DNA of 64,000 nucleotides from Vitis vinifera (taxonomy: Eukaryota > Streptophyta > Magnoliopsida > Vitales > Vitaceae), in NCBI RefSeq assembly GCF_030704535.1, contig NC_081810.1:6830501-6894500 (forward strand), written 5' to 3'. Shown here one piece after another: positions 6,336 to 15,300 of the stretch (its first letter is position 1; the number at the start of each line of letters is the position of its first letter). The translations under genes and the position numbers were made by a program. The notes under the pieces were generated by a model that was not told where the DNA came from, ran no database searches, and was given only the letters and a program-made list of their open reading frames with translations.

Positions 6336-9300
6336 TTACGGAACGGGACACTCCTCTATGTTCCAAATTTCCTTGGCGTATTGAGCTATGGTTCGATCAC
6401 TGCTGAATTTGCCACTCCCAGCAGTGCTCAATATAGACATCTTTAGCCATCTTTTCCTATCCCTGCAGGCAAAATATGTTTTAGAAATTCAGAACAAATG
6501 TTGAAGTTGAGAAACACGATATTGCAAGGCCATTGCCTTCAGCTAGGGGCATAAAAAGAACCTCTGAGAAGGACTCCTGACTTAGGCATTTAGCTTTCAT
6601 TTGACCAAACATGGTCAAAGCTCAGGCCAAGCTTTTATCATTAGTGCTCCATATTCAAAAGCTTCTATCCAAGCTTACTTGCATCTGGTCATTTTGATTG
6701 AAGCGCAACCCAGGTCCAATACTAATGTTTGAAGAGCCCCTAAGCCAGTTCTGAGGTCAACTCTTGTGAGATTCCGTCCTTAAATTCTTTGAAGAAAGTG
6801 CAATTTTGGATCGTATAGGAAATATTTTTTCCTCTGCTTGAGTTTTTCTAGGTGTTTTGGATCATATAGGAGATATTCTTTATCTATTGAAGTTTTTCTA
6901 GAAATCAATCTTAAGGCTATACCTATATTAAGTGGGTGTTTGATAGTAATTCTAAGAAGTGTTTTTGACATTTTTAGTACATGAAAAATAAAAATTTTAA
7001 AATGTTAAAAAGGTTAAAAACATTTCCTAAAATCATTACCAAACGCACTCTAAGACTTTATAGCTTTCCTTTCCTTGCTTCCTTTTAATATAAAGTAAAA
7101 TCTGATGTACAGAGCGTTGTTATATTTAAAGATTAGGAGAGCGTTAGTTTCTTACTTGTAGGCTTCATCCACTCTTGCCTGAGCATCCATGTAGCCAGGG
7201 AAGTCGTGACCAACAAGAAAGTAATCGCCACGACCATAACCAGAATTTCCCTCTAGAGACTCGAGGAGTGGATTATAATCATAGCTTCCAAATGCTCCAG
7301 TTCTTATGAATTGCATGGCCTCTTCAAACCGGGGATCTGGCTTGAACTGTAGGGGATCAGCAAGGAGTAATGTCAGACCAGAATGAAAATGGTGAATCAC
7401 TAGTACGTACACCAAAATATTTTAGGCCAAAAAAAGCAGCATTGGTAACAATGTTTCAAAATAAAAACAAAAAATCAAATTATTTAGACAAAAAATTCAC
7501 TATAACATAGGTGAAAAGATAGGAAACTTCTAGTTGCAGGTACAGAAAATCTGAAGCATTGAAAACCCTAGCAGCCATGAAGGTTTTATGATCACTAAGC
7601 TAACAGACAACCGTGTGGTACTTAATTTGGTTCTGGTAGTAGCATATTTGGCTTCTGGCTTTGGTTCTGGTAGTGGGATATTTTGCTTTTGGCTTTATTC
7701 AATCTAAACCCCTAACCCCCTTAACCAATTTATATGTTGAGAAGGCAAATCATGTCTTTAAAACATAAATCAAAATTTTCAGCACCAACATCATTTCTCA
7801 AATGGGATAAGAAGTCATCTGCCAATTATAGGAACCTAAAGATTCAGAGTATCAGGAGTCATTTAATGCAAAAGCAAATATTTTTTTTGCTGAACATAAG
7901 GATATCACAGTTTTACCAGTCCAGCCTCTCTTTTCTTGCGCAACTTAGGGACTTCATCTGCTGTGGCACCAAAGAGAAAAAAGTTCTCCTCCCCGATTTC
8001 CTCCCTGATTTCCACGTTAGCCCCATCCAATGTTCCTATTATGAGGCAACCGTTGAGTGCAAATTTCATGTTGCTTGTCCCACTGGCTTCCATGCCAGCT
8101 GTGCTGATGTGCTGTGACAACTCACTTCCTGGAATAAGCACCTCTGCCACAGACACATTATAATTTGGAACAAAAACAACCTGAAATTTTTTTACAGTTA
8201 TGGATGCATCAGCAAGTGTAGCATATACTAAAAAAAAAAGATTGCTGAATATAAAAAAGCTTAAAAAGCCAAAACATACAAAGCACACTCTGAAGAATAT
8301 AGTAATAGAAATATTAAGGAAGACATAGCATACTACACATTCTAATATTTTTAGATCTTAAAATGTCGATCAAGTTTTATCAAAAACTACTACTATTTGA
8401 ATTTTTTTGGTAGTCAAATTCCATTACACAATGTCTTAAATGAAAAAAGACAGGTGCCAACAATAGCCACATACTATAGAAGTGCAAAATGAAAATAAAA
8501 ATAAACAAATTAAAAATCTGGTTTGGAATAATAGAAAATGCATCTATTGAAGAATGTTAGCTGTATATATCTGTACATACCATAATTTGGTTGTTTCCTT
8601 AGGGATAATACCTTCCTAATTCAGGACTCTCAATTGTATATATAAACAAGTATTATTCATCTAATAAATAACAAGGAATTGAGAATTACCTTGATTCGGT
8701 TACATGGTATCAGAGCTGATCCCTGACCCCGGTGTGGGGGTTTGTTTGGCTCCGTAAGGGGGTGTTTGTCTGTTTGGTCCCGTAATCCCATGGGACACAA
8801 CGAGGACGTTGTGTCTGCATGGGGGGGTGTTTGTGATGTCCCACATCGGATAGGGGAGAATGTTCCTGACGCTATATATGTAGAGACTCCTCTTAACCAA
8901 GTAGACGCGTTTTAAAGCCGTGAGGGCCCTCTTGGGCCCAAAGCGGACAATATCTACATGGTTGGGTGCGGGTCGTTACAAATGGTATCAGAGCCACGTT
9001 TGGTTCAAGGGAATTTTCTGGGTTTTGGGTTTTGTTCCTAACAATCTGGAACAGTAACCTGTTACGTGTTTGGTCTGGATTGCGTCACCGCCGACCCAGG
9101 GAGGAGCGCATTCTTGTTTCCGGAGCGTGGGAGTGCTTGAGGCCGCCGTTTCTTCACCTATTTGACGTCCCGACGTTGCTTGAGGCCGCCGTTTCTTCAC
9201 CGATTTGACGTCCCATCTCTCGATCTGACTTTCCGACGTGTTCGATCAACTGTCGAGGGATCGCAAAGATTCATCGACGACTGTGGAATCGCTGTCGCCT

Positions 9301-12300
9301 TCTTCTCAGATCCCGCCGCCCTCTCTTCGCCCCGTTCTCCGTCAACGCGGTCTTCACCTCGGCCGGAACCCTAAGCCCCCCCACCGAAAACTCAGCACGA
9401 CGCCTTTCCTCATCGGCAGCACCGTGTTTGCGCTCAAATCCAGGCCAGAAATCAAACAGTCGGCGTCGTCCGAGATCATTGAAAGCCCCGGCCTCCATTC
9501 TTCTCGGGCCCGACACACGACCCACGTTTGTCAGCAGCCCTGCTCTGTCTCCGGCTCGTGCTGCCGGACCGATCTGAGTTTCTTCGCCCGCCTTGGTCGC
9601 CACGACTCACGACTTTCAGGGTGAGAAAGAGAGGGAGTCAAGGGTTTGACGCACGCTTTTGACCCTTTTACCCTTTTGTCACCTTGTAAGAGAGGTATTT
9701 GTCTTTTTCTTCTTGGAGTGGTAAATTGCAATTTCTGGTCTGGCTGATTGCTTTGAAGATTAAATTTATTGTCATGGAAGAGAGTAAGAATTCTGTTGCT
9801 GATATAGTGCCTATTGTGTCAAAAATAACTGAACACAAATTAAATGGGTCTAATTATATTGAATGGAGCAAGACTATCAAAATTTATTTGAGAAGTGTTG
9901 CTAAAGATGACCACTTGACTGAGGAACCTCCTAATGATCACACTAGAAAACTTTGGATGCAAGATGATGCACGGTTATTTCTGCAGATGAAAAACTCTAT
10001 TAATAGTGATATCGTTGGTCTGCTGAGTCATTGTGAATTTGTTAAAGAGCTAATGGATTATCTTGATTTTCTGTACTCTGGAAAAGGAAATGTATCTCGG
10101 ATGTATGATGTATGGAATGCTTTTCATTGTCCTGAGAAGGGAGCTAAATCCCTCACTGCATATTTTATGGACTTCAAGAAGGTATATGAGGAATTGAATG
10201 CACTTATGCCTTTCAGTCCGGATGTTAGAGTACAACAGGCTCAACGGGAACAGATGGCTGTTATGAGTTTCTTATCCGGTCTCCCATCTGAGTTTGAGAC
10301 TGCAAAATCTCAGATTCTTTCTGGTTCTGACATTGGTTCCCTTCAGGAAGTTTTCAGTAGAGTTCTACGAACTGAGAATGTCTCATCTTCTCAGCACACC
10401 AATGTTCTCGTTGCAAAAGGAGAAAATGCAGAAAATGCAAGAAGGGTGAATAACAGGGGCGGAAACAGGGCATTTGAAAATCGGGGCAATGATTCAAGTA
10501 CAACAATTGTGTGTTTTTACTGCCATGAGGCTGGCCATACCAAGAAGAACTGCAGGAAATTGCAAAATCGAAATCGGAGAATTCAAACTGCCAATGTTGC
10601 TACATCTGATACTGCTACATTTTCAGACTCCTCAAACAAGATCGTCACAATGACAGCAGAGGAGTTTTCTAAATATTCACAGTATCAAGACGCACTGAAA
10701 GCATCTACTCCTGTTAGTGCTCTGGCAGAGTCAGGTAAAACATGTCTTGTCTCCTCCTCAAACAAATGGATAATTGATTCAGGTGCCACAGATCATATGA
10801 CAGGTAATCATAAAACCTTCTCTACCTTCAGAACACATTCTGCTCCTCCTGTTACTGTTGCTGATGGTTCTACCTATGAGATTAAAGGGTCTGGGACTGT
10901 GAAACCAACATCTTCTATTACGTTATCTTCTGTGTTAAACTTACCAAATTTGGCCTTTAACCTAATCTCTGTCAGTAAACTTACCAAAAATCTGAATTGT
11001 AGTGTCTCATTTTTCCCTGATCATTGTGTGTTTCAGGATCTTATGACGAAACGGACATTTGGTAAAGGACATGTATCTGATGGGCTCTATATTCTTGACG
11101 AGTGGGTACCTCGACCAGTTGCGTGTGTCAGTACTGCCTCTCCTGTTGAAGCTCATTGTCGGTTAGGACATCCTTCTCTACCGGTGTTGAAGAAATTATG
11201 CCCTCAGTTTGATACTTTACCTTCATTAGATTGTGAGTCGTGTCATTTTGCGAAGCATCATCGTAGTTCTTTAGGCCCAAGGCTTAATAAACGGGCTGAG
11301 TCTTTGTTTGAACTAGTACATTCTGATGTTTGGGGTCCGTGTCCTGTTACTTCTCAAACTGGGTTTCGATATTTTGTTACCTTTGTGGATGATTTTTCTC
11401 GAATGACTTGGATTTATTTTATGAAGAATCGTTCAAAAGTATTTTCTCATTTTTGTGCCTTCTCTGCTGAGATTAAAACCCAATATGATGTGTCTGTGAA
11501 AATATTAAGAAGCGATAATGGAAAAGAATATGTTTCTAACTCATTTCAGAATTACATGAGTCACAATGGGATTCTTCATCAAACATCTTGTGTTGATACT
11601 CCTTCTCAGAATGGGGTTGCTGAAAGAAAGAACAGGCATTTACTTGAGACAGCTCGTGCCCTCATGTTCCAGATGAAGGTTCCGAAACAGTTTTGGGCTG
11701 ATGCAGTTTCCACAGCTTGCTTTCTGATCAACCGTATGCCCACTGTAGTGCTTAAAGGTGATATTCCGTACAAAGTAATACATCCACAGAAATCACTTTT
11801 TCCATTGGCCCCAAGAATTTTTGGATGTACATGCTATGTTAGAGATACAAGGCCTTTTGTTACTAAACTTGATCCTAAGGCGTTACAGTGTGTTTTCTTG
11901 GGGTACTCAAGACTGCAAAAGGGCTATAGATGTTTCTCGCCTGATCTCAATAAGTATCTAGTATCAACGGATGTTGGGTTTTCAGAAGACACATCATTTT
12001 TCTCTTCACCCACGAGTTCTGCAAGTGCGGAGGATGAAGAATGGCTTGTGTATCAAGTGGTTAATTCAAAACCAACTGTTGGGCAATCAAGTGTGGTCGA
12101 TTCTGATGCATCTCTTGCTCCTTCGGGTCCTGTTGTTCATATTCCTCCTGCTCCAGCCAAACCACCAATTGTTCAGGTGTACTCTCGGCGCCCAGTGACA
12201 ACCGATACATGTCCTGCACCAGCTCCTTCGTCATCTGATCCTTCCAGTGATCTCGACCTTCCTATTAGCCTTCGGAAAGGTAAACGACACTGCAAATCTA

Positions 12301-15300
12301 TCTATTCCATTGCTAACTTTGTGTCTTATGATCACCTGTCATCTTCCTCCAATGTCCTTGTAGCCTCTATAGATTCTATTTCCGTACCTAAAACTGTTAC
12401 AGAGGCCCTGAATCATCCTGGTTGGAAGAATGCAATGCTTGCAGAAATCTGTGCATTGGAGGATAATCATACATGGAAACTTGTCGATTTGCCTCAAGGA
12501 AAGAAAGTTGTTGGCTGCAAGTGGGTCTTTGCGGTAAAAGTTAATCCTGATGGCTCTGTGGTACGATTGAAAGCCAGGCTTGTAGCTAGAGGATATGCTC
12601 AGACATATGGAGTAGACTATTCTGATACTTTCTCTCCAGTTGCCAAACTCAATTCAGTTCGACTATTTATTTCTATTGCTGCTTCCCAACAGTGGATGAT
12701 ACATCAGTTAGACATCAAGAATGCTTTTCTTCATGGTGATCTAGAGGAAGAGGTCTATCTGGAGCAACCTCCTGGGTTTGTTGCTCAGGGGGAGTATGGG
12801 AAGGTTTGTCGTCTGAAAAAAGCTCTCTATGGATTGAAGCAGAGTCCCCGTGCTTGGTTTGGAAAATTCAGTAAGGAGATTCAAGCATTTGGCATGAACA
12901 AGAGCGAGAAAGATCACTCCGTTTTCTACAAGAAATCAGCTGCTGGTATCATACTTCTTGTGGTCTATGTCGATGATATAGTTATTACAGGAAATGATCA
13001 TGCAGGAATCTCTGATCTTAAGACATTCATGCATTCCAAGTTTCATACAAAGGACTTGGGTGAACTGAAGTATTTCCTGGGAATAGAAGTATCAAGGAGC
13101 AAGAAAGGGATGTTCTTATCACAAAGGAAGTATGTGCTTGATCTGCTTAAAGAGACCGGTAAGATAGAAGCAAAGCCATGTACTACCCCGATGGTTCCTA
13201 ATGTACAACTTATGCCAGATGATGGAGATCCCTTCTACAACCCTGAAAGGTATCGGAGAGTGGTTGGGAAGCTGAATTATCTCACCGTGACGCGACCAGA
13301 TATTGCATATGCAGTAAGTGTTGTTAGTCAGTTCACATCTGCGCCTACAATAAAGCATTGGGCGGCTTTAGAGCAGATTTTGTGCTACCTAAAGAAGGCT
13401 CCTGGTCTAGGCATACTATATAGTAGTCAAGGACACACTCGCATTGAGTGTTTTTCTGATGCGGATTGGGCAGGTTCTAAGTTTGATAGAAGATCCACTA
13501 CAGGTTATTGTGTGTTCTTTGGCGGGAATCTAGTGGCTTGGAAAAGTAAGAAGCAGAGTGTTGTATCCCGTTCGAGTGCAGAATCTGAGTACAGGGCCAT
13601 GTCACAGGCTACTTGTGAAATCATATGGATACATCAACTCTTATGTGAAGTGGGAATGAAGTGCACAATGCCAGCAAAGCTTTGGTGTGACAATCAAGCC
13701 GCTCTTCATATTGCTGCGAACCCAGTCTATCATGAAAGAACCAAACACATTGAGGTCGATTGTCACTTCATTCGTGAAAAGATTGAGGAAAATCTAGTCT
13801 CTACTGGCTATGTGAAGACTGGAGAGCAACTTGGGGATATTTTTACAAAAGCTCTAAATGGAACTCGAGTTGAGTACTTTTGTAACAAGCTGGGCATGAT
13901 CAACATCTATGCTCCAGCTTGAGGGGGAGTGTTAGCTGTATATATCTGTACATACCATAATTTGGTTGTTTCCTTAGGGATAATACCTTCCTAATTCAGG
14001 ACTCTCAATTGTATATATAAACAAGTATTATTCATCTAATAAATAACAAGGAATTGAGAATTACCTTGATTCGGTTACAAAGAACATCAACAACTCGGAA
14101 AAATAAATAACCTGAAGCAAGTTGGATTACCATAACAGTCTTAACAACTCAGAAAAATTTCCATGTTCCTCTATTGGTAGGAAAACCACACAATGTTGAA
14201 AAGGATGAAATATCAAGAAAACGGCAAACTTACTCATTAGACATTTCAACTGTAATTGTGGCCACACAAGTGCGAGCAAACAAAATTATATTGCACCATC
14301 TGGAAAGTTAATTAAAGATATTTTACCTTCAAATACTCATTGACTTCAGGATCAGTGTTGACAACAGCACCAACATCATTCACCAGCTTGACTATCCTTT
14401 TAGCATTGGTGTATGTAGCGAATGCTTTTCCTCCAATCATGATCGTGCGTGGTGTTGTATTCTTTCGTTCTTCAGGGCTCATCTCCTGCCATGATCATAT
14501 TTTTTTTTGAAAAAAAAAAAATCAATTACAGCTGTGCTTAAAATACATCTAGTGAAATATTTTCTCTGAAGTTCAACATTGAAGTGCTTTTGAACTAAAT
14601 GCTTCTACAAAATCTGTACTGAACTTTATTTTACTCAAAATACAGTTTGGATCATATCAAACGCCTATGATGGCATCTGGCACCCCAAAGTGTCTGGGTA
14701 ATAGCCATGAACAGAAGGATTTAAATAAACTTATTTTTTTTCCCTGTTCTTTTAATTCCAGAACAAGAATTGAAATCCTAAAGTCAGTGAACTAGAAAAA
14801 AAGATGGATAGCATAAAGTTGTGGGATCATAAAAAATGACAGAAACTAGGGAAGTTGGGAATAAACAGAGACAGATAATAGCAATACTGACAGTAAATTC
14901 ACTATTTGACTACATATTTTTCTTGGTATTCATTGTAATCAGGAACAAACTAATCAAAATGACATCCAACTTTTTGTGAGCATGACTACCGCAAAACAAT
15001 AGACATTGTTGGAAGTGTACCTTTAACTTCTTGTACCTATAGATTGCACCCAGAATATTTAGCAGCTGTCTCTTATATTCGTGGATGCGCTTGACTTGAA
15101 TGTCAAATAAACTATTTGGGTCAATGCTTTCACCTGTTACTTGCAGTATGTACTGTGCCAAACGCTGCTTGTTAGCCATCTTTGCAGATGCCCATTCAGC
15201 CTGGAATTCTTCATTGTCGGAAAACTATTGTAGAAGGGATTAGTATTGAATTGATATTATTACAATAACAGGAAGCATTTACTTTGAGGAAAATGATAAC

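Follow-up and report, generated by a model that had tools for sequence, protein, structure and literature searches.

The 64,000-nucleotide stretch of Vitis vinifera DNA analyzed here (the window) contains a young Ty1-copia element in which one complete internal-LTR unit of an unrelated TRIM family is located between the 5' LTR and the leader. As the earlier note had proposed, two retroelement families are fused at this locus; both junctions fall within a shared primer-binding site (PBS) word, and template switching in the course of reverse transcription explains the fusion best. Fusions of a similar kind at other genomic loci suggest that the shared PBS is a site where different retroelements recombine. 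The layout described in that note (copia LTR and PBS, TRIM internal part, TRIM LTR and a second PBS) was confirmed by reading the letters, and the features of the element are as follows.

8550..8554, no strand: target-site duplication (TSD) AAGAA, left
8555..8704, plus strand: copia 5' LTR, TGTTAGCTG...CGGTTACA, equal to the 3' LTR over 150 bp
8705..8716, plus strand: PBS 1, TGGTATCAGAGC, the left junction from copia LTR to TRIM internal part
8705..8831, plus strand: TRIM PBS and internal part, 127 bp, identical to a free TRIM at C14
8832..8980, plus strand: complete TRIM LTR, 149 bp, TGTGATG...GTTACA
8981..8982, plus strand: AA spacer of the TRIM between LTR and PBS, with AA likewise in free and arrayed TRIMs
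8983..8994, plus strand: PBS 2, TGGTATCAGAGC, the right junction from TRIM LTR to copia leader
8995..9773, plus strand: copia leader, starting CACGTTTGG, its first part common to block-free copies
9774..13922, plus strand: copia gag-pol ORF (Retrotran_gag_2, gag_pre-integrs, rve, RVT_2)
13921..13929, plus strand: polypurine tract GAGGGGGAG, adjoining the 3' LTR (by eye)
13930..14079, plus strand: copia 3' LTR, with no TRIM sequence after it
14080..14084, no strand: TSD AAGAA, right

The whole copia element spans 8555-14079, with LTRs identical at 150 of 150 positions and AAGAA on both sides. The element was categorized as Ty1-copia based on its LTRs, PBS, polypurine tract, integrase preceding reverse transcriptase, and 5-bp TSD; within the single open gag-pol frame, the rve domain is found at 513-609 and RVT_2 at 898-1141. 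The foreign block (8705-8982, 278 bp) consists of the TRIM internal part, the whole TRIM LTR, and AA, and is followed by PBS 2 and the copia leader. Both of its junctions are inside the 12-nt PBS word common to copia and TRIM, which is present in the 64-kb window (both strands checked) only as PBS 1 and PBS 2, and the 13th base differs, being T at PBS 1 and C at PBS 2. The claim that one PBS word follows both LTRs holds for the word, which is 12 nt long, but not for the way it is attached: the copia LTR (...TTACA) abuts TGGTATCAGAGC without a spacer, whereas the TRIM LTR (...GTTACA) continues as AATGGTATCAGAGC, with AA in between. The copia 3' LTR is plain copia, and the TSD follows it directly.

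A search with the block resulted in at least 117 matching pieces at many genomic places, with 84-100% identity (40 of 1232 candidates scored), including free LTR-internal-LTR copies and arrays with a period of up to 278. Judged from these sequence matches, the TRIM identity of the block is not due to chance. The closest free TRIM among the matches listed, at C14:19642672-19643097 (L066; 426 bp, LTRs of 148-149 and an internal part of ~128), is too short for gag or pol. Aligned with the block over 276 bases, it shows a single 1-nt indel and not one substitution; the internal parts are identical, and relative to the TRIM LTR of the block the 5' LTR of this copy has one substitution and its 3' LTR one 1-nt indel. 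Simple TRIMs with a TSD include this copy (ATATC), L073 (GATTC), and L077 (ATTAT), and the PBS of the family is TGGTATCAGAGC, which we take to be complementary to initiator tRNA-Met. Given the 150 of 150 identical copia LTR positions and the near-identical TRIM at C14, the fusion event is young; assuming about 1.3e-8 substitutions per site and year, the lack of any difference between two LTRs of 150 bp sets only a rough upper bound of 0.8 million years on the age. Among 203 exact matches, 11 have a base other than A before the PBS, and one of these, C8:18693666, was considered as a junction candidate and dropped, being an ordinary TRIM by its coordinates. In the portions of the published texts available, the TRIM table of Gao et al. 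2016 (PMC4717578) has a grape row with a total of 5, and a different grape TRIM, with LTRs of 496-499 bp, is described in PMC7166211.

The distribution of the block was examined by genome-wide searches with the copia LTR (40 of 81 candidates scored) and the copia leader (23 of 23 scored). The leader matches comprise 23 loci including the window, and C18:35894645 was added from the LTR search. In all 23 other copia-related loci examined, the block is absent and the LTR meets the leader at the PBS, which supplies the block-free copies of the copia family asked for in the earlier note; 17 of these loci (14 + 3) were read by letters and six were judged by coordinates (end of the LTR match equal to start of the leader match), and the set leaves aside three or more additional loci that match the LTR (among them C7:30511732, C13:15397131, and C13:28961938). 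Searching the genome for the exact left junction returned the window copy only, with six more matches at two mismatches, four of which are TRIMs; the other two (L032 and L033) have no TRIM match and were dropped as further left junctions. The exact right junction was likewise found in the genome only in the window copy, with none at one mismatch. With each exact junction occurring once, and both in the window, the suggestion that the chimera travels as a unit was not supported: the chimera is a singleton in this assembly that shows no sign of spread and does not constitute a new mobile family.

Fusions with a second partner were found at other loci. The Pfam hits of this partner family (Retrotrans_gag, Ty3_capsid, and RVP_2) place it as Ty3-gypsy type, by gag and protease only. 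A sample of 20 TRIM loci was drawn from the upper part of the match list by TRIM similarity only, and at four of these loci (L067, L072, L075, and L083), found in this way independently of the PBS pattern, the gypsy LTR end ...GGGGCGTGACAGAG is located directly before the TRIM internal part. When these four loci are aligned with a plain copy of gypsy, the match in each ends with the final base of the 12-nt PBS word. A pattern consisting of the gypsy LTR end and PBS gave 65 matches, 52 with gypsy's own next base A and 11 with GCC. When the 11 GCC matches were read by letters, nine continued into TRIM internal sequence and two into gypsy, with two other matches outside this reading; the pattern favors GCC over GCA by one mismatch, and 9 of 65 is therefore not a rate. 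L092 and L094 were considered as TRIM fusions on account of GCC and rejected because the sequence continues as gypsy. Five of the nine gypsy-TRIM cases, as well as the reverse cases below, were found with patterns that contain the PBS, and the location of their junctions at the PBS is not independent of the search.

The opposite pattern (TRIM-like LTR end, PBS, and non-TRIM sequence) resulted in eight exact matches: the window, three with a gypsy continuation, and four of other kinds. The reverse junction of TRIM LTR, PBS, and gypsy internal part was read at three loci, C18:12359357 and the more diverged L053 and L065, in which the gypsy part has 81% and 78% identity, and C9:13390362 and C14:4786960 are candidates for TRIM LTR, PBS, and GCACT by a 23-base pattern only. 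The first of the three belongs to a composite at C18:12359214-12366395, in which TRIM LTR, PBS, and gypsy internal part are followed at the other end by gypsy LTR, PBS, and TRIM internal-LTR, all within the TSD GTTTA; the two ends were read, and the length of the middle fits one gypsy internal part plus LTR. Its outer TRIM LTRs differ at 3 of 149 sites. This composite mirrors the topology of the window with another host and another guest. In L083, an inverted TRIM LTR-internal part, a gypsy LTR piece, the PBS, and a TRIM internal-LTR unit share the TSD TATTC.

Several further arrangements were noted alongside these. Pattern matches at C18:7990168, C4:17206993, C4:17208730, and C4:17209153 have LTR-like ends followed by AA, the PBS TGGTATCAGAGC, and a non-TRIM continuation. 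C4:3504072-3504363 (L109) contains three copies of the terminal ~95 nt of the gypsy LTR, two in tandem and one in inverted orientation. A gypsy piece of 92 nt in L067 is nearly equal to the L109 piece and has a similar start, and this piece is possibly a copy of R-U5 strong-stop DNA. In L056, a TRIM near gypsy internal sequence is nested by appearance.

We then considered where the breakpoints fall. Eight TRIM internal parts in the 20-locus sample have no TRIM LTR end before them, and they start at PBS nucleotide 1 (six), nucleotide 4 (one), or nucleotide 82 (one). The partner of the six that start at PBS nucleotide 1 is the gypsy LTR in four cases; the remaining two are both in L084, where the partners are gypsy integrase coding sequence (by eye) and a short stretch without assigned identity. 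The TRIM PBS start is joined to coding sequence in two fusions, namely L084 (by eye) and a copy of the window copia family at C14:13546140-13553301 (L026, L099, and L111), which has a TRIM PBS-internal-LTR unit in its coding region. In the latter, the TRIM unit joins the coding region at the 8-nt word ACAAATGG, corresponding to the TRIM spacer and PBS start. The insert, read except for about 0.9 kb, also contains, in inverted orientation, a piece that is 71% identical to the 3' part of copia; where the copia frame continues, 8 nt are missing, and no LTR end is found at the outer edges of the insert. The end of the TRIM cDNA at the PBS thus seems to be the active partner, with the other side often, but not always, a PBS. 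L084 also contains a stretch of ~207 bp between TRIM LTR and TRIM PBS that begins with a PBS-like word and includes a tRNA-like box, GGGTTTGAACCCC (by eye).

Many of the sampled TRIM loci consist of repeated internal-LTR units, which measure 265-278 bp in L067; some of these arrays are arranged head to head. A total of 21 elements at the 20 loci were searched for a 5-bp TSD outside the TG...CA ends. This search resulted in 14 elements with a TSD (13 at first, with L083 following once its left end was included). As a control, the elements' own flanks match in 13 of 13 cases, and left and right flanks swapped among the 13 match in 0 of 156. No TSD was found in seven of the 21 elements, from six of the 20 loci (L068, L072 twice, L075, L078, L081, and L084), and for L072, L075, and L084 the true ends are not established. 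A single outer TSD encloses each of 11 multi-unit elements (L067, L069, L070, L071, L074, L076, L079, L080, L082, L083, and L085). Because direct arrays can grow by unequal crossing over inside one insertion, a single TSD by itself does not reveal the timing in such arrays, the TRIM-only examples being L071, L080, L082, and L085. Crossing over keeps the TSD of direct arrays, and hence only six composites are informative: four with inverted halves (L069, L070, L074, and L076) and two with gypsy pieces (L067 and L083). The single TSD of each of these six points to assembly before integration.

The four composites with inverted halves (on C16, C18, C7, and C9, respectively) are head-to-head inverted TRIMs in which both outer ends are U5 ends, with single 5-bp TSDs of ATACC (L069), AGTCA (L070), GAGAC (L074), and CCACC (L076), and they look as if palindromic cDNA had been integrated. 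The center of L074 was not counted as a foreign junction because the last nine bases of the TRIM LTR and AA are kept before the PBS. In L067, a gypsy piece and an inverted TRIM LTR are followed by nine direct units, all inside the TSD TGGTG. Four of these units (1, 2, 3, and 5) share the same 278-nt sequence, from which units 4 and 6 deviate by 6-8 substitutions plus indels, and the subtypes alternate within the one array as A A A B A C A' A'' A'''. This order fits serial copying of several RNAs, and later exchange inside the chromosome may have contributed.

We consider it probable that the TRIM unit was added to copia cDNA at the PBS, with the end of the minus strand re-primed on the PBS of a co-packaged TRIM RNA. 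The minus strand normally ends at the PBS, as the RNA 5' of the PBS has already been removed after the first transfer. In the proposed sequence of events, copia minus-strand cDNA would reach the PBS, where the usable template ends, and its 3' end would be that of the tRNA primer. This end would pair with the PBS of the TRIM RNA, replacing the tRNA, and would be extended through the TRIM U5-R. An ordinary R-R transfer would then bring it to the 3' end of the TRIM RNA, where copying would proceed through U3 and on through the internal part as far as the TRIM PBS, yielding exactly one internal-LTR unit. Copia plus-strand strong-stop DNA (LTR-PBS) would then pair with the TRIM PBS and finish the element, and the finished fusion would integrate with a normal 5-bp TSD. 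As a single rule, re-priming at the PBS would explain the structure in the window and would equally produce TRIM concatemers and the composite on C18.

The recurrence with gypsy, including TSD-bounded composites, the exact PBS junctions, and the full TRIM LTR in the middle are observed, as are the identical outer copia LTRs with their TSD and the lack of the block in the sister copies examined; co-packaging, an origin in the last cycle, and re-priming by the cDNA end as opposed to a different sort of jump at the PBS are inferred. Use of the second PBS for starting a later cycle would have placed TRIM sequence in both LTRs. Since only plain copia is found in the 3' LTR, minus-strand synthesis in the cycle of this insertion probably did not begin at the second PBS. 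The plain 3' LTR and the singleton status of the fusion suggest an origin in the same cycle that produced the window insertion. Taken alone, the TSD and outer LTRs of the window and of the C18 composite fit a unit added to an already integrated element as well.

Such an addition would be the outcome of recombination between DNA copies after integration, with gene conversion or repair copying placing the TRIM unit in the copia PBS under guidance of the 12-nt identity. The TSD and LTR identity of the window are compatible with this, as is the C18 composite. Unequal crossing over is given for tandem TRIMs in the available portion of the Wukong paper (PMC4528315), and Cassandra arrays are attributed in part to recombination in that of PMC7215508. 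The insert in the C14 copia copy, with 8 nt missing and no LTR ends at its outer edges, could also be repair filler. However, the common identity amounts to only 12 nt (plus GTTACA), and 12 nt is far below the usual need of homologous recombination; the six TRIM composites with inverted halves or gypsy pieces, each within one TSD, argue in the same direction, as do the alternating unit subtypes in one array, though later exchange could also give these. We therefore regard DNA recombination as unlikely. If the structure were an assembly artefact at the window locus alone, which is very unlikely, the single-copy status of each junction would be accounted for, but not their exact placement at a functional site or the nine gypsy-TRIM junctions of like form at other loci.

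Scarcely any credence is given to the model of Sabot and Schulman, in which reverse transcription reads through the 5' end of one RNA and then jumps to a second RNA at R. Such a jump yields an LTR common to both elements, outer LTRs that are identical, and a TSD (PMC1950507) and could make TRIM-only arrays, but it predicts a chimeric middle LTR that combines the U3 of one family with the R-U5 of the second. The middle LTR of the window is instead TRIM to its last base and the AA, and the gypsy fusions keep gypsy LTR sequence up to the PBS. It was rejected for the window locus because the middle LTR is wholly TRIM and the U5 regions of copia and TRIM are not identical. A nested origin, with a TRIM or a solo LTR of the TRIM inserted in the copia leader, has next to no chance of being correct, even though TRIMs do enter other elements and L056 looks nested: there is a single TRIM LTR, the left edge is a PBS rather than an LTR end, and 5-bp repeats sought around the block (TTACA / TGGTA) and around the TRIM LTR (GTGTT / AATGG) were absent, so that the target duplication by which the earlier note would have recognized nesting was not seen around either. 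That the block is simply native leader of the copia family, the outcome named beforehand in that note as speaking against a fusion, is of vanishing probability and agrees with the position in the leader only, given that free TRIMs are numerous, the block belongs to this independent TRIM family, and the sister copies at all loci examined in this assembly are block-free.

Re-priming at the PBS may also apply more widely. Tentatively, and with a little less than even confidence, we propose that the PBS is a general recombination hinge, at which the minus-strand cDNA end takes the place of the tRNA in priming whichever RNA of the particle has the same PBS. Several rounds of this would give TRIM concatemers; between families, it would join TRIM, Ty1-copia, and Ty3-gypsy elements one PBS-internal-LTR module at a time and swap LTRs. 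With the PBS as such a hinge, families without any relationship would recombine in a single pool as long as their tRNA is the same, the shared tRNA primer would decide the recombination partners, and TRIM fusions would name the particles in which TRIMs are copied. How TRIMs are mobilized is largely open, and a TRIM fused to copia or gypsy at the PBS suggests that both RNAs were in one reverse-transcription reaction, so these fusions could be used for finding the partners of TRIMs. In the available portions of the two texts, Gao et al. (PMC4717578) give related larger elements for 11 of 289 TRIM subfamilies, and Kalendar et al. (PMC7215508) call the partners of Cassandra unknown. The fusions also bear on whether tandem TRIMs originate by crossing over or by template switching, because unrelated LTRs offer little homology.

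Template-switch complexes and tandem TRIMs are known, and what looks new is the PBS-hinged fusion across TRIM, copia, and gypsy. By title and start of abstract, the open-access papers searched yielded no description of PBS-hinged TRIM-copia or TRIM-gypsy fusions. In soybean, LTRs have reportedly been swapped between autonomous and non-autonomous elements, which is alike in the exchange of LTRs between families; the PBS hinge and the whole internal-LTR unit are different here. Sabot and Schulman 2007 (PMC1950507) described complexes of closely related elements and proposed a switch at R. The window element resembles these complexes in having an extra internal LTR, a single TSD (AAGAA), and outer LTRs that are alike (150 of 150), and both interpretations involve template switching between two RNAs in one particle. 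The window differs in that the families are unrelated, the hinge is the PBS, and the middle LTR is wholly TRIM rather than a third LTR gained within one family by a switch at R. The legend of Fig. 2 in Gao et al. 2016 (PMC4717578), a paper available in part, describes tandem TRIMs with one TSD, including an inverted TRIM pair, and Cassandra arrays are ascribed in the accessible text of PMC7215508 to recombination or template switching. As described in those portions, the TRIM arrays (PMC4717578), Wukong (PMC4528315), and Cassandra (PMC7215508) likewise alternate LTR and internal units but are TRIM-only, whereas here copia and gypsy units or LTRs are joined to TRIM at the PBS. In retroviruses, two different RNAs co-packaged in one particle recombine during reverse transcription, according to the available part of a review (PMC5086612), beside which PMC11302176 is named as prior work; here, three plant element classes are involved and the PBS is the hinge.

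The copia leader itself varies in ways that are separate from the block. In four of the 17 loci read by letters (L104-L107; C19:20308325, C2:18306810, C15:1198031, and C10:719250), an unrelated LTR precedes the shared leader. The leader of these loci has 80-91% identity to the window leader over 141-196 query bases, their LTR scores no better against the window LTR than shuffled sequence does, and the change falls at the PBS, perhaps because LTRs were swapped there at an earlier time. L108, another of the 17, has a divergent copia leader but is not claimed as a PBS-bounded exchange because similar words are kept in that leader. The length of the leader match varies among sister copia copies, and at 9134-9214 the leader in the window contains a 43-bp tandem duplication (TGCTTGAGGCCGCCG...).
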